Source of the DNA: Thraustochytrium sp. TN22
Taxonomy: Eukaryota > Sar > Bigyra > Thraustochytrida > Thraustochytriidae
Direction: 5' to 3'
Assembly (NCBI GenBank): GCA_013306675.1
Contig: JABLUY010000118.1
Span: 1 to 64,000, forward strand
Length of the DNA stretch: 64,000 nucleotides
Below are positions 55,901 to 61,651 of this stretch, one piece after another. The notes beneath the pieces were generated by a model. It was not told the origin of the DNA. It made no database searches and saw nothing but the letters and a program-made list of their open reading frames with translations. How positions within the stretch are numbered: the first letter of the stretch is position 1; the number at the start of each line of letters is the position of its first letter. The position numbers and the translations under genes were made by a program.

Positions 55901-58900
55901 TCAAGCGCTTCCCCGTGAGGAGCTCGATCTCGAACTGGAGCGCAGGCGGGAGGCTCGCGCCAGTGCGCGACGGAGCCTGGGCGGCAGCTCGTCAGGCCCG
56001 AGCGGCACGTTGGTAAAGTCGAGCCCGGTCACGATCCAGCGGTCGAGCAACTCTCTGAGGTCCCACGGACCGCGCTTGTCAACAAGGACTGGCTGGTCCA
56101 TGGGCTCGCCGCTGAAGGCGCGCCAGCTTGTGCGGCGCGACACCGTCTCGGCCGGAAGCCCATCGTAGTCAATGGCGGCGGCCGTCTCGGCGCGCAGCTG
56201 GCGCTCCCACTCGGGCCAGGTGGCGAGCCATTCCTCAAACTGGGCGTCCGAGATGCCGAGCGCAGCGTCGCGAGCGGCGGCGATCTGGTCCGCAGTGACC
56301 GGCACGAAGGTGCGGTACAGCATGGCGCTCGAGGAGACCGGCAGGTCAAGCGCCTCCCGCAGCGAGATCTCGAACCGGAGGTAGACGCAGACGTCGTCGC
56401 GTATCGCGCCCGGGTGCGCAGCCGCGTGCTCGCGGACGATTTGCAGGCGCATGACGCGGCGCCCGAGCTCGCGCAGCGCCGCGCGGTCGCCACGCGCGCG
56501 GATGATGAGCGTCATCAGGTACATATCGTTGAGCGCCCAGATGGGCTTGTCGGAGCACGAGTCGATCGAGTCCGCAATGCGCGAAAGGAGCTCCTCGCGC
56601 ACGCCCTCCGGGTCCTGCTCAATGATCTCGAGCAGCTCCACGACGCGCTGCGCCAGACCCTCGCGCAGGTCCGGCCGCCGGAACTCGGCACTGCGCTTGA
56701 GCAGCAATAAGAATCCGAGGATCGTCGAGTGGTGGAAGACGTCCACCGCCTCGTGCAAGGCGAGCGACGGCTCGCGCCCCGCGCGCGCCTCCCAAAACGC
56801 CACAGCCTCCTCCAGCGTCGTAAAGTCCGGAGTGCGCGAGACCGCGTCGTCTATCGCATGAGCCAGGCTCAGGCCCGTCTGAAAGGCAGCGCAGCGCGCC
56901 TCGAGGAATTCGAAGCTCAGGTCGCGGCCGATCGGCGACGCCTCATCCACCACGATGCTTGCGACGTTGCGGATCACCGCGTCCGGGAGCTCGTGCAGCG
57001 AGCTGCAGTTGCTCACCTCGATAAGACGCGACACGCGAGTCGACTCCGGCACCTCGGCGAGCTCCAGGTTGTCGCGCAGCGCCAAGAAGCCCGCGCGAAG
57101 GCGCTCTGAAAGCGTGGTGAGGCCGGCGCAGTCCGAGATCTCTGCCGTCTCGCGCACGCGCACGTGCTCCGGTAGCCTGCGCAGCGACGGCAGCTTGCGC
57201 AGAACCAGGTTGCCGCGCAGGTTGATCTGCTCGCACAGCGCGTCCAGGCTTGGGCAGGAGTCCACGGTGATGGAGTTGCGACACTGCAGCTGCTCTGGCA
57301 GCTCCACGAGGTTCAGGCACTGCACGATGCAGACGTCGTTGGCGTGCAGCACGCGCGGCAACTGCAGCGTGCCGCAGCGGTCGATGCGCAGCTCACGCTT
57401 CACGCGCAGAGACCCGGTCAGCTCCAGCTGCGGGCATTGCGAGATCTGGCACGAGCCGAGATCCATGCTCGTGGGCAGCGAAGCCACGCCCGCGTCCCGA
57501 ATGTACAAGTCCGGGTGGTGCCCGCTCGCCGTGAAGCGCTGTGGCAGTGCCTGCAGCTCGGCGCAGGCCACCACTACGGCCTTTTCGCGCGCGCACGCGC
57601 CGTCCTGCACCGTGTGCAGGGCCGGCAAGGCAACCAAGTAGAAGATGTCGACACGCACGCCGCGCGGCACCATCTGCACCGCGCAGTTCTTCATCTTGAA
57701 GAGCTCGCCCACCTGAAGGTCCTCGGGCAGCTCCTGCAGCGCCTCGCAGTCAGAGAGCACGAGCTCTTCGAGCCGGAGCTGCGCCGGCAGCGTCGTCACG
57801 GCGCTGTCCCGCACGCACAGCCGGCCCGTCACGTGCGCATCGTGCAGGTGCTCAAGTCGCGGGCACGACTCGAGAATGAGCGTCTCCACGTGCAAGTCGG
57901 ATGCGAAGCCGGCCAGCACGTGGCACCGTGAGAGAATCAGCGTCTCTTGCACCTGCACGTTCGCCACGCTCTCCAGCGCCTGGCACGCGCGTACCTCGAG
58001 ATGCGACACTTGCACACCGTCGGGCAGCCGCCGCAGCCGCGGGAGGTCCTGTAGCACCAGCATGACGTGCACGCGCAGGTCTGCTGGCAGCGCCCGCACC
58101 TTGGGGCAGTTCGTCAGCACGAGCGTAGCAACTTCCAGCCCACTTGGCAGCGCCTCCAGCTCTGCGCAGTCCACCAGGTGCAGCCCGAGCATCTGCCACG
58201 GCTGCACAACGGGCGCGGCGAAGTCGAGCGGGCCGGCCCACGTGCGAACGCTGAGCTGGCCGCGCCACGTCACGCCACAATCGCGGAGGCGCAGACCTCG
58301 GCCGCCAGCGTGCTGACCAAGGTGTGACCCGTCGATCGTCACCGTGTTGAGCACCTCGAGCGCGCCCTGGCTGCGCCCGAGTGCATCGTGGTTCACCCAC
58401 TGCAGCAGTGCGCCGAGCACCGGCAGGTCCTGAGCGATCATCTTCATGCCGGCTGCCGTCAGGGAAAAGGCGTCCAGGTCCGTCGCGGTCCCGTGTAGGA
58501 GCGCCTCGCGGGCCCGCTCCACGCGGGCCTCAAGGGCGGCGCCCAGGATGAAGTTCACCACGCTCTCCGTGACGTGCGAGACATCGTTCCCGCGCTCGAT
58601 CTGGATGCCCCGGAGCCCCGCGTTCTTCTGCAACAGGCCCACCACCGGCACGAGGTCCTCGCTGGACAGGCCGCAGTCGACGAGGCGCAGGTGCTGTAAG
58701 GTCCTGTGCGACGTGAGCGCGTCCAGCACGTTGGCGAGCACGGGCGCCATGGCCGGCGCGTACTCGACATAAAGTTTTAGCAGCGCGGCGCGGCGCATGG
58801 CATCGACAAAGTCGATACGCGACGCAAAGGCCGCGGATTGCGGCGCGAGGTCCACCGGGCGGCCCGCGCTGGCGTCGAGGGCGACGCCGCCCTCGACGAC

Positions 58901-61492
58901 GAGCACTTCGAGGCCGGGCATACGCGCACCCGCAGCGAGACCGGCCCACGGGAGCGCATTGGCCTCAATGGTACGAACGTGCAGCCTGCGCAGCGAGTCG
59001 GTGCCGGCCGCCGCGGGGAGGGCGAGGTCGAGCACGTCCGCGGCGCCGCTCAGCTCGAGGCTCTCGAGCGCACAGGCGCCACGCTCTAGCGCGGTGGCCA
59101 GGTGCTGCGCCTGCGCGCGCGAGCATAGAAAGAGGTCGAGGCGCAGCGGCTGCGTGGCGACGAGCGCCTGCACGAGCCTCTTTGAAGCTTCGGCGCGCTC
59201 CGCGGCCGCCAGTTTCTCCTGGCGCGCGCCTTGGCCGAGTCCGAGCCGGCGCAGCGACGCGTGCGAGGCGAGCACCTCGATGGCGTCCTGCGCCGCCTCC
59301 TCGGAGATGCCATTGTTGCCCAGATCCAGCGTGTGCAGGGTGCGGTTGGCGTCCAGTCCAGCGCGCAGCGCAGACCAGCCCGTGTCCAGCGAGGTGCCCA
59401 CTAGGCTAAGGTGCTGCAGGCGTTTGTTGTGCTCGAACATGCGTTGCAGAGGGACGGCGAGGCGCGACGAGAGGTTGCTTCGGGCCAGGTTGAGCGCGCG
59501 CAGGCTGGTGTTGGCCTGCAGCTTCTCCAGGAGGCGCTCGGCGATGGGCGCGGCAAGAGCGTTTAGCGCAAGGTTCAGGATGACCACCTTGGAGTCGGCG
59601 CCGGCCAGGTCGGTCCAGGCGAAGTCCACGTCCGGGTCGCCGGGCGAGGTCACGTGCAGGTTGATGCCCAGGACGTTGTCGCGCAGGTCGAGGAAGCGGA
59701 CGGCAGGCCTACCGCGTAGAACCTGTGCGAGCTCGTTGGCGCCGAAGCCGGTGAGACAGTTCTCCGCCAGATTGAGCGCCGTGAGCGAGGGCAGCTCGTT
59801 GGCCGCCAGCTCGGCGCAAAGCACGTGGCAGCCGGTGTCGCCGAGCTGACTCTGCGAGATGTCCAGGTAGCGTACGGCCTGGAAAGCGCGGCACAGGTAC
59901 GAGAGCACGTGCGGGCGCTGCACGTTTCGAAGGCAGGTGAGCTGCGCGAGCACGAGCGAGCGCAAGACACGATTGGGCGCACGGCGCTCCACGAGGCGGC
60001 GCAGCGCGGTGCGCAGCAGGTTGTCCTTTTGGCTGGTGAGCCAGCTGCTGATGGGCCGCGACGGCCGATACGGCGCGAAGGCAAAGTTGGGCCCCAGATT
60101 GACCACGACCGACGACACGCAGTGGCGCGCCGAGGCGACGGTGAGCGCCGGGACGATGCCCTTCCACAGGTTCATGTCCCGAAACGCAACGCCGAAGGGG
60201 GCCGCATAGGACCCGTTGAGGCTGAAGCGGATCGATTTGCGGTCCAGGTCGACGTAGCAGCCGATCACGTCGCCGGTGCGGCAGCGGCGGCCAAAGTCCT
60301 CGGAGCGGTTGTCCGCCACGGCGCGGCCCTGCGCCGGGTCAAAGCCCCAGCTGTACAGGCTATCGCCGACGCCCACTCCGGCGCCCTTGCCCTCCTCGTA
60401 CGAGGTGGCCACCCACCAGGTGTCGGTCCAGCCGATGCGGGCGGCCGCCCAGGACGTGTCGCTCCGCCAGCCCGTAAGCTCTACCTCGTAGTAAAAGGAC
60501 TGGCTGCCGGTGCGCAGCGTGGCCATCTCCTTGAGCGCCACGGTGGTGTAGGAGCCGTGGAAGTCAATCTGCGTGCGGCCAGGCCCGCGGGGTGACATCT
60601 CGGCGCGGCCCGAGAGCGCGCGGAAGGGCGCGGTCCCAGACGCCTCGTAGGCGCCTGCCAGGTTGAGCCCGTCCAAGTGGCCACCGCGGTGCGCGTCCGA
60701 AAGCAGGTCGGCGAAGGCGCCGACGCCCTCCAGGCGCGCGCCTTCCAGACTCAGGACGTGCGGTCCGCGGCCGGCGCGCAGCGTACGGGACAGCTGGGCA
60801 GCCAGCTTTACGGGCACGGTGCAGCGCGTCAGGTCGAGCGCCTCCAGCGACCGGTTCCTGCGCACCGCCGCCCACACGTCGCGGTCGCTCAGCACACGCG
60901 CCAGCAGGTCATCAGGGCCGAGGATGCTGCCGCCGTCGTCATTCAGTAGCGTCTCCAGGACATCCAGCCTCACGGTCGCGTCCTCCTCGCCCTCGTACTC
61001 TTCCGACGTGCGGCTCGCGCGCGTGCCCTGCAGCGCGCGGTCGCCCAGCAGGCGCGCCATGCCCGCCAGCAGGCCATTCCCGGCCAGTGTCCTCCGCCGC
61101 ACGCTCGCCACGCGGCTGCGCTGCCGCGACGCCTCGCCGCTCATGCTCTCCGAGAGCGCCCGCGCTCGCGCCCGCGCCGCTGCTCCTGGCTCGACGGGCT
61201 CGTTGCTAGGGTACTGGTACCGCCCCAGGCGCTGGTCCTGCACGCGCTGCGCCTGCGCAGCGACGAGCGAGCTCGCGTCGAGCTGCAAGACCTCTTGAGT
61301 CGAGCGAGCGAGCAAGCGAGCGAGCGAACGCGAAAGCGCCACGAGGCGGGGGTTGCCGCCGCGCAGCCGCGCACGCAGCCGTCCCACCGCCACGCGCCAC
61401 CACGCGGCTACGGGTCTGCCGGGTGGCCACGCGCCACTCGCGTGCTCGACAGAGCAACTCGCGGGGCGCGAGGGCGAGCCTGGGGCACTCAC
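55901..61492 (-). CDS. SPRY + LRR + NEL-type (IpaH/SspH-like) E3 ubiquitin ligase, 1863 aa
   Basis: One unbroken frame. Residues ~305-473 are a SPRY/B30.2-type domain (SFYYEVELTGWRSDTSWAAA, IGCYVDLDRKSIRFSLNGSY). Residues ~475-1090 are RI-type LRRs (LRALNLARSNL, LHTLDLGNNGISEEAAQDAI). Residues ~1095-1530 are ~20-residue repeats of the form LxVxxLxLxxCPxLxxLPxx, as in bacterial effector LRRs. Residues ~1540-1810 match the NEL domain: DSCSDKPIWALNDMYLM with the CxD motif at C1646-D1648, then LGRRVMRLQIVREHAA, VCVYLRFEISLREALDLPV, and VTADQIAAARDAAL, FEEWLATWPEWERQLRAETA. NEL enzymes are known mainly from bacterial effectors (IpaH, SspH, SlrP), where the Cys carries ubiquitin and the LRR picks the substrate. 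The start may be downstream, for example near residue 116. A Ser/Arg tail ends the protein. Confidence 0.8.
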   Translation of the reverse strand: MSAPGSPSRPASCSVEHASGAWPPGRPVAAWWRVAVGRLRARLRGGNPRLVALSRSLARLLARSTQEVLQLDASSLVAAQAQRVQDQRLGRYQYPSNEPVEPGAAARARARALSESMSGEASRQRSRVASVRRRTLAGNGLLAGMARLLGDRALQGTRASRTSEEYEGEEDATVRLDVLETLLNDDGGSILGPDDLLARVLSDRDVWAAVRRNRSLEALDLTRCTVPVKLAAQLSRTLRAGRGPHVLSLEGARLEGVGAFADLLSDAHRGGHLDGLNLAGAYEASGTAPFRALSGRAEMSPRGPGRTQIDFHGSYTTVALKEMATLRTGSQSFYYEVELTGWRSDTSWAAARIGWTDTWWVATSYEEGKGAGVGVGDSLYSWGFDPAQGRAVADNRSEDFGRRCRTGDVIGCYVDLDRKSIRFSLNGSYAAPFGVAFRDMNLWKGIVPALTVASARHCVSSVVVNLGPNFAFAPYRPSRPISSWLTSQKDNLLRTALRRLVERRAPNRVLRSLVLAQLTCLRNVQRPHVLSYLCRAFQAVRYLDISQSQLGDTGCHVLCAELAANELPSLTALNLAENCLTGFGANELAQVLRGRPAVRFLDLRDNVLGINLHVTSPGDPDVDFAWTDLAGADSKVVILNLALNALAAPIAERLLEKLQANTSLRALNLARSNLSSRLAVPLQRMFEHNKRLQHLSLVGTSLDTGWSALRAGLDANRTLHTLDLGNNGISEEAAQDAIEVLASHASLRRLGLGQGARQEKLAAAERAEASKRLVQALVATQPLRLDLFLCSRAQAQHLATALERGACALESLELSGAADVLDLALPAAAGTDSLRRLHVRTIEANALPWAGLAAGARMPGLEVLVVEGGVALDASAGRPVDLAPQSAAFASRIDFVDAMRRAALLKLYVEYAPAMAPVLANVLDALTSHRTLQHLRLVDCGLSSEDLVPVVGLLQKNAGLRGIQIERGNDVSHVTESVVNFILGAALEARVERAREALLHGTATDLDAFSLTAAGMKMIAQDLPVLGALLQWVNHDALGRSQGALEVLNTVTIDGSHLGQHAGGRGLRLRDCGVTWRGQLSVRTWAGPLDFAAPVVQPWQMLGLHLVDCAELEALPSGLEVATLVLTNCPKVRALPADLRVHVMLVLQDLPRLRRLPDGVQVSHLEVRACQALESVANVQVQETLILSRCHVLAGFASDLHVETLILESCPRLEHLHDAHVTGRLCVRDSAVTTLPAQLRLEELVLSDCEALQELPEDLQVGELFKMKNCAVQMVPRGVRVDIFYLVALPALHTVQDGACAREKAVVVACAELQALPQRFTASGHHPDLYIRDAGVASLPTSMDLGSCQISQCPQLELTGSLRVKRELRIDRCGTLQLPRVLHANDVCIVQCLNLVELPEQLQCRNSITVDSCPSLDALCEQINLRGNLVLRKLPSLRRLPEHVRVRETAEISDCAGLTTLSERLRAGFLALRDNLELAEVPESTRVSRLIEVSNCSSLHELPDAVIRNVASIVVDEASPIGRDLSFEFLEARCAAFQTGLSLAHAIDDAVSRTPDFTTLEEAVAFWEARAGREPSLALHEAVDVFHHSTILGFLLLLKRSAEFRRPDLREGLAQRVVELLEIIEQDPEGVREELLSRIADSIDSCSDKPIWALNDMYLMTLIIRARGDRAALRELGRRVMRLQIVREHAAAHPGAIRDDVCVYLRFEISLREALDLPVSSSAMLYRTFVPVTADQIAAARDAALGISDAQFEEWLATWPEWERQLRAETAAAIDYDGLPAETVSRRTSWRAFSGEPMDQPVLVDKRGPWDLRELLDRWIVTGLDFTNVPLGPDELPPRLRRALARASRLRSSSRSSSSRGSA

Positions 61493-61651
61493 TCTCTGTC
61501 AGCATTGGCAAAACTCGATGGACCAAGCAAGTGGCACACAGAACGTCCAAGGACTCGAAAGCAGGTTCGGAGCTCGCCGTAGGGCCGGCCGATGTTAATT
61601 AAAAACAAATCCTGTCAGAGAACCCGAGGCCGCGGGCTCGGCGGGATCGTG

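Follow-up and report, generated by a model that had tools for sequence, protein, structure and literature searches.

The closest described counterparts of the gene analysed here are the IpaH/SspH/SlrP type III effectors of Salmonella and Shigella, which are bacterial and injected. According to a review, Asp339 and Asp397 matter in IpaH9.8 (PMC9320238), and another report describes in SspH1 a helical E2-ubiquitin-binding thumb at residues 623–697 (PMC12506513). In eukaryotes, NEL is mentioned in PMC7145615 among the bacteria-like domains of green algal NLR genes, and the ODAL domain is called homologous to NEL there. Among the literature matches listed, which mostly do not cover subscription papers, we found no report of thraustochytrid NEL ligases or of a U-box-tailed NEL. 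Individual database entries are already NEL-labelled, since UniProt calls one Hondaea entry, P0024, NEL domain-containing.

Here we studied a NEL gene of Thraustochytrium sp. TN22 in a stretch of 64,000 nucleotides, which we refer to as the window. The encoded protein shares with the effectors the CxD motif, a preceding LRR domain and the NEL fold, the latter as predicted here. It differs from them in that its gene lies on a eukaryotic contig with host-like flanks and codon usage, and in that its model lacks a thumb like that of SspH1. We consider it likely that an LRR-NEL gene was acquired in an ancestor, probably from a bacterium, and was domesticated and expanded, with a U-box-like tail that would relay ubiquitin to Cys1646.

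Domains of the window gene

The gene corresponds to a minus-strand frame at 55901–61492 that is open throughout its 1863 codons. Its features are the following:

55901..61492, minus strand: NEL gene, a 1863-codon open frame of which codons 1–116 are doubtful
61487..61505, minus strand: end of a possible short first exon, with an ATG and a splice-donor-like GTGAGT at the GTG 'start' (from the sequence only)
60119..60496, minus strand: SPRY domain, residues 333–458 (Pfam PF00622, E=1.4e-13)
59183..59905, minus strand: ribonuclease-inhibitor-like LRRs, residues ~530–770 (Pfam LRR_6 and PDB sequence matches)
56948..58183, minus strand: second LRR block, residues ~1104–1515, repeats of ~21 residues (loose-pattern repeat scan)
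56180..56827, minus strand: NEL catalytic domain, residues 1556–1771 (profile and predicted fold)
56555..56557, minus strand: predicted catalytic Cys1646 (row conservation)
56549..56551, minus strand: Asp1648 of the CxD motif (row conservation)
56396..56398, minus strand: Asp1699, putative equivalent of IpaH9.8 Asp397 (position by row conservation)
55931..56134, minus strand: U-box-like C-terminal domain, residues 1787–1854 (AF2 model and weak profile match)

The original prediction described an intact gene of 1863 residues. The frame is indeed free of stops, but its GTG start is doubtful. GTG starts are a bacterial usage, and the GTG at 61492 sits within GTGAGT, a splice-donor-like hexamer, 13 bases past an ATG (61503–61505). 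As an in-frame ATG first occurs at codon 117 (61142–61144), residues 1–116 are unreliable. Acceptor-like AGs are present in phase downstream of the GTGAGT. The named domains of the protein are independent of these residues.

The Pfam NEL profile (PF14496) matched residues 1589–1771 over profile positions 27–221 of 223, with E=1.6e-27 and a score of 96.7 bits against a curated cut-off of 24, and C1646 and D1648 were found where they had been predicted. The structure prediction, proposed earlier as a check together with this profile search, gave a helical NEL catalytic fold. IpaH9.8 was the best PDB sequence match of the protein (residues 1366–1768, E=4.6e-13), indicating that the similarity extends into the LRRs ahead of the NEL domain; these LRRs are directly N-terminal of it, as in canonical IpaH/SspH effectors. 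The NCBIfam model IpaH_Shig matched residues 1612–1768 (1.6e-9) with 37.6 bits, far under the cut-off of 550 for a true IpaH.

The SPRY domain, also predicted before, was recovered by Pfam. The LRRs had been called eukaryotic. They form two blocks, of which the first is ribonuclease-inhibitor-like (LRR_6, E=3.1e-8; PDB matches to ribonuclease inhibitor over residues 530–609) and the second resembles that of LRR-NEL proteins.

A NEL family in the host genome

That the window gene has paralogs had been missed. We searched its own genome with the NEL profile and found 25 places, all above the family cut-off and none with internal stops, so the gene is one member of a family of 25. The same search returned no place in 14 control genomes, and the CxD motif is retained in 25/25 copies; these matches are thus not due to chance. 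The loci are spread over 18 contigs, five of which exceed 180 kb, and some are clustered: four on C335 (including L021 and L022), four on C453 (L010, L013, L015 and L026) and three on C158 (including L018 and L019).

Since NEL is known mainly from bacteria, we considered whether the contig is a contaminant or mis-joined. Ten neighbouring ORFs were scanned. PQ-loop, Pumilio, ABCG-type transporter and protein kinase domains were found in four of them, one more gave an EF-hand match under the cut-off, and the other five were without any Pfam match. The four domain-bearing neighbours bear out the expectation of ordinary host genes as flanks, and the gene is GC-matched to them as stated earlier, with a GC3 of 0.873 (0.835–0.927 in the four) and an RSCU correlation of 0.977. 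These host-like flanks and codons, together with the number of loci and large contigs, the fusions to SPRY, SAM and Arm, and the existence of Hondaea relatives, led us to reject contamination or mis-joining, which we regard as barely conceivable.

Pfam found NEL in all other 24 frames. In single frames it is accompanied by SPRY and LRR (N01), by SAM (N08) or by an Arm match (N05); in the remaining frames NEL stands by itself or beside a weak LRR match. N01 aligns with residues 207–491 of the window protein at 30%, so that the SPRY architecture is common to two paralogs. The combination of Arm and NEL recurs by Pfam in L027 (N05), P0007, P0009 and P0010, and P0011, which is named importin alpha, groups with these proteins; Arm may serve as recognition part in place of LRR. 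Cys-rich hydrophobic N-terminal stretches, membrane-segment-like by eye, were seen in N13, N18, N19, N22, N24 and N25. The loci of this subgroup are L013, L018, L019, L021 and L022.

We calculated dN/dS (Nei-Gojobori) for nine paralog pairs, which are not independent and do not include the window gene. Values were 0.07–0.39 for NEL, 0.22–0.64 for the tail and 0.32–0.84 for the upstream stretch of at most 220 residues (only 61 codons for N22/N23). Purifying selection therefore acts on the paralogs. In 9/9 pairs the upstream LRR stretch was above NEL, and no LRR value in the nine pairs exceeded 1 as a sign of positive selection. For N18/N21, dS was 0.039 in NEL and 0.721 in the LRR stretch, a contrast that suggests gene conversion or LRR exchange.

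The large family and its tandem, LRR-variable copies would also suit secreted effectors, delivered by the protist into other cells such as prey or hosts, in place of internal E3 ligases, and some labyrinthulomycetes are parasites. The subgroup N13, N15 and N18–N25, however, has N-termini that are Cys-rich, hydrophobic and, in the printed members, membrane-segment-like by eye. We regard secretion as very improbable.

Relatives of the family and the direction of transfer

Protein searches scored the 8000 candidates sharing most words, and the match counts are therefore lower bounds. With residues 500–835 of N14 we obtained at least 24 matches, all NEL. Those listed comprise six of Hondaea fermentalgiana (best identity 76%), a thraustochytrid and labyrinthulomycete, one of Durusdinium trenchii, one from MMETSP transcripts and otherwise nameless proteins. 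N02 gave at least nine matches, P0025 among them, and P0030 at least 24 including itself. The metagenomic proteins P0026–P0049 lack informative names; some apparently occur several per contig, on contigs of up to 181 kb. Two side observations concern individual entries. P0007, labelled Durusdinium trenchii (a dinoflagellate), falls inside the thraustochytrid clade and reflects either contamination or a second eukaryotic host, and P0017 of Hondaea is a predicted protein with both NEL and tubulin domains, probably because annotation fused two genes.

A tree, which the original prediction had proposed, was built from 77 NEL domains: our 25 copies, P0001–P0025, P0026–P0050, and one domain each of Bradyrhizobium and Serratia symbiotica. 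The window gene fell within a single eukaryotic clade of 50 rows (100/100), outside any small starred group. For the nameless relatives, 'eukaryotic' denotes membership of this clade with its named Hondaea members. Own copies and relatives are intermixed (10 and 11 label changes), so the paralogs predate the species. P0026–P0048 formed a metagenomic clade of 23 (100/96), and P0049 and P0050 lie on long branches. Caveats on these placements are the program's warnings that long branches meet and that the bootstrap had not settled (correlation 0.987), and the fact that just two rows come from named bacteria. Best scores with the own-NEL profile were 178–265 bits for the relatives, 95–152 for P0026–P0049, 80 for Serratia, 53 for Bradyrhizobium and 47 for P0050.

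The metagenomic LRR-NEL proteins are collinear in LRR and NEL and have a similar tail pattern, as in the thraustochytrid family; they differ by the absence of SPRY, SAM and Arm in the seven members scanned with Pfam and by weak tail homology. N13 and P0045 are collinear through LRR and NEL (538 columns, 32%), and the second LRR block of the window protein matches the LRRs of P0046 (BLASTP E 4e-27, 30% identity, repeats inflating such values). LRR and NEL thus most likely moved as one unit. By itself the second block is no pointer to bacteria, since its only PDB match, with a plant resistance protein, was weak (E 0.034).

In the search for the host of P0026–P0049, two pattern scans of GTDB genome contigs gave 185 and 41 stretches, none of which was confirmed. 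PADLOC, run on two proteins, returned no match. Viral carriage was examined as well and not retained: scans of viral contigs with alignments A1 and A6 yielded 28 and 42 stretches and no confirmed one, an absence that weighs little given such specific patterns, and Foldseek found no match at E<=0.001 among viral models. Three phage records match P0030 within its LRR part only.

The scenario of acquisition from bacteria and domestication is partly supported, by the NEL domain in a eukaryotic gene, the host-like flanks and codon usage, the single clade and the purifying selection on the paralogs. The direction from bacterium to protist is no more than probable, given that the nearest non-eukaryotic-looking relatives are metagenomic proteins and that only two rows in the tree are of named bacteria. 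The opposite course, in which bacteria took NEL ligases from protists, their place of origin, and turned them into effectors, appears improbable. It is in line with the fact that NEL acts on ubiquitin, which is present in protists and absent from bacteria, with a diverse protist family joined to several domain types, and with a root that hangs on two long bacterial branches. However, the named eukaryotic members among the matches listed are Hondaea and one Durusdinium entry, the first branch within the eukaryotic clade (N02, P0024 and P0025) is short, resembling effectors in size, and the review cited above reports more than 900 species predicted to have a NEL domain, in a bacterial context (PMC9320238). 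According to the favoured bacterium-to-protist scenario, a thraustochytrid ancestor would have acquired an LRR-NEL ubiquitin ligase gene that became a host gene, multiplied to at least 25 copies and was fused to eukaryotic recognition modules. In the window copy, SPRY and ribonuclease-inhibitor-like LRRs would have been added at the N-terminal end.

Cys1646 and Asp1648 are kept in 50/50 eukaryotic rows, 24/24 metagenomic rows (P0026–P0049), P0050 and both bacterial outgroups. Asp1699, which would correspond to Asp397 of IpaH9.8, is kept in 48/50 eukaryotic rows, 23/24 metagenomic rows, P0050 and both outgroups. The residue after CxD is a clade-specific Lys in 47/50 eukaryotic rows and Arg in the metagenomic and bacterial ones. 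This Lys, and a tail that appears altered in the model, would fit host genes whose ligase activity was lost or changed, for example to that of a scaffold, a thioester hydrolase or a ligase for another ubiquitin-like modifier. Such a change is unlikely given the conservation of CxD and Asp1699 in the eukaryotic rows and the stronger constraint on the NEL domain than on the LRR stretch, seen in all nine pairs.

The C-terminal tail and a candidate relay

The NEL domain had been placed at the end of the gene, and a conserved U-box-like tail beyond it, present in 25/25 own-genome copies, had been overlooked. Past residue 1773 the model consists of short strands and two helices of 11 and 4 residues, and no long antiparallel helix pair, as in the helical E2-ubiquitin-binding thumb, follows this residue. 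Residues 243–310 of the AF2 model resemble the U-boxes of Prp19, Ufd2, CHIP, E4B and LubX. A search of PDB sequences with the tail profile returned the UBE4B U-box, weakly (best E 0.14). The Pfam U-box profile (PF04564) matched 0/19 own tails at E<=5, with HMMER filters dropping most matches above 0.1. Compared with the U-box ligases UBE4B/Ufd2, Prp19 and CHIP, the tail appears alike in predicted fold and core-motif register and differs in that the window family is unmatched by Pfam U-box. U-box ligases are also not known to have a catalytic cysteine. The model and the weak profile match together favour a U-box-like tail in place of the NEL thumb, with less support than the NEL fold has.

In the metagenomic relatives, the model of P0030 has a strand-strand-helix end like the eukaryotic tail, at high confidence, and the two tail profiles compared with P about 0.0009 in a single comparison. 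Other results speak against a common origin of the tails. The eukaryotic tail profile gave metagenomic proteins no more than 7.5 bits, where reversed sequences reached 1.1. In the other direction, the metagenomic profile reached at most 2.5 bits with own frames, and its PDB matches were headed by urease beta (E 0.015) and included no U-box. Pfam U-box was absent from 14 metagenomic tails, and two of the 14 (P0026–P0049 family) matched NleG, a U-box-like effector family, at a best E of 0.061, which is not significant. LRR proteins filled the listed structural matches of the P0030 model, which therefore bear on its LRRs and not on its tail. A common ancestry of the eukaryotic and metagenomic tails is possible from these sequence comparisons.

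Judging from its position and predicted fold, the tail may hold the charged E2 in place of the thumb. For the window protein acting as an E3 ligase, the SPRY domain and LRRs would bind the target, and the U-box-like tail, at the position of the bacterial thumb, would bind ubiquitin-charged E2. Ubiquitin would then pass to Cys1646 of NEL, with Asp1648 and Asp1699 assisting, and on to the target. The proposed logic alone is shared with RBR (RING-between-RING) ligases, in which one module binds the charged E2 and another bears the catalytic cysteine; no relation in sequence or fold is claimed, and no such family occurs in the Pfam table of the window protein. Tentatively, and with less than even confidence, we picture a hybrid eukaryotic E3 in which a U-box replaces the thumb of a bacterial-type NEL and passes ubiquitin on to its cysteine. 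Such an RBR-like relay would have arisen independently, within a fast-evolving thraustochytrid LRR/SPRY family for variable targets, similar to immune receptors. By analogy, variable LRRs and tandem copies resemble recognition families such as these receptors; the role in sensing or immunity raised by the original prediction is a conjecture.

With natural NEL variants that carry another module for the E2-binding thumb, the role of the thumb could be tested directly. Some thraustochytrids are cultivated as oil producers and are transformable, so gene removal should be practicable. A large, constrained and domain-shuffled family in a eukaryote would make NELs part of the eukaryotic ubiquitin system, and the thraustochytrid family would be an example of an effector-type fold that is native to a host.
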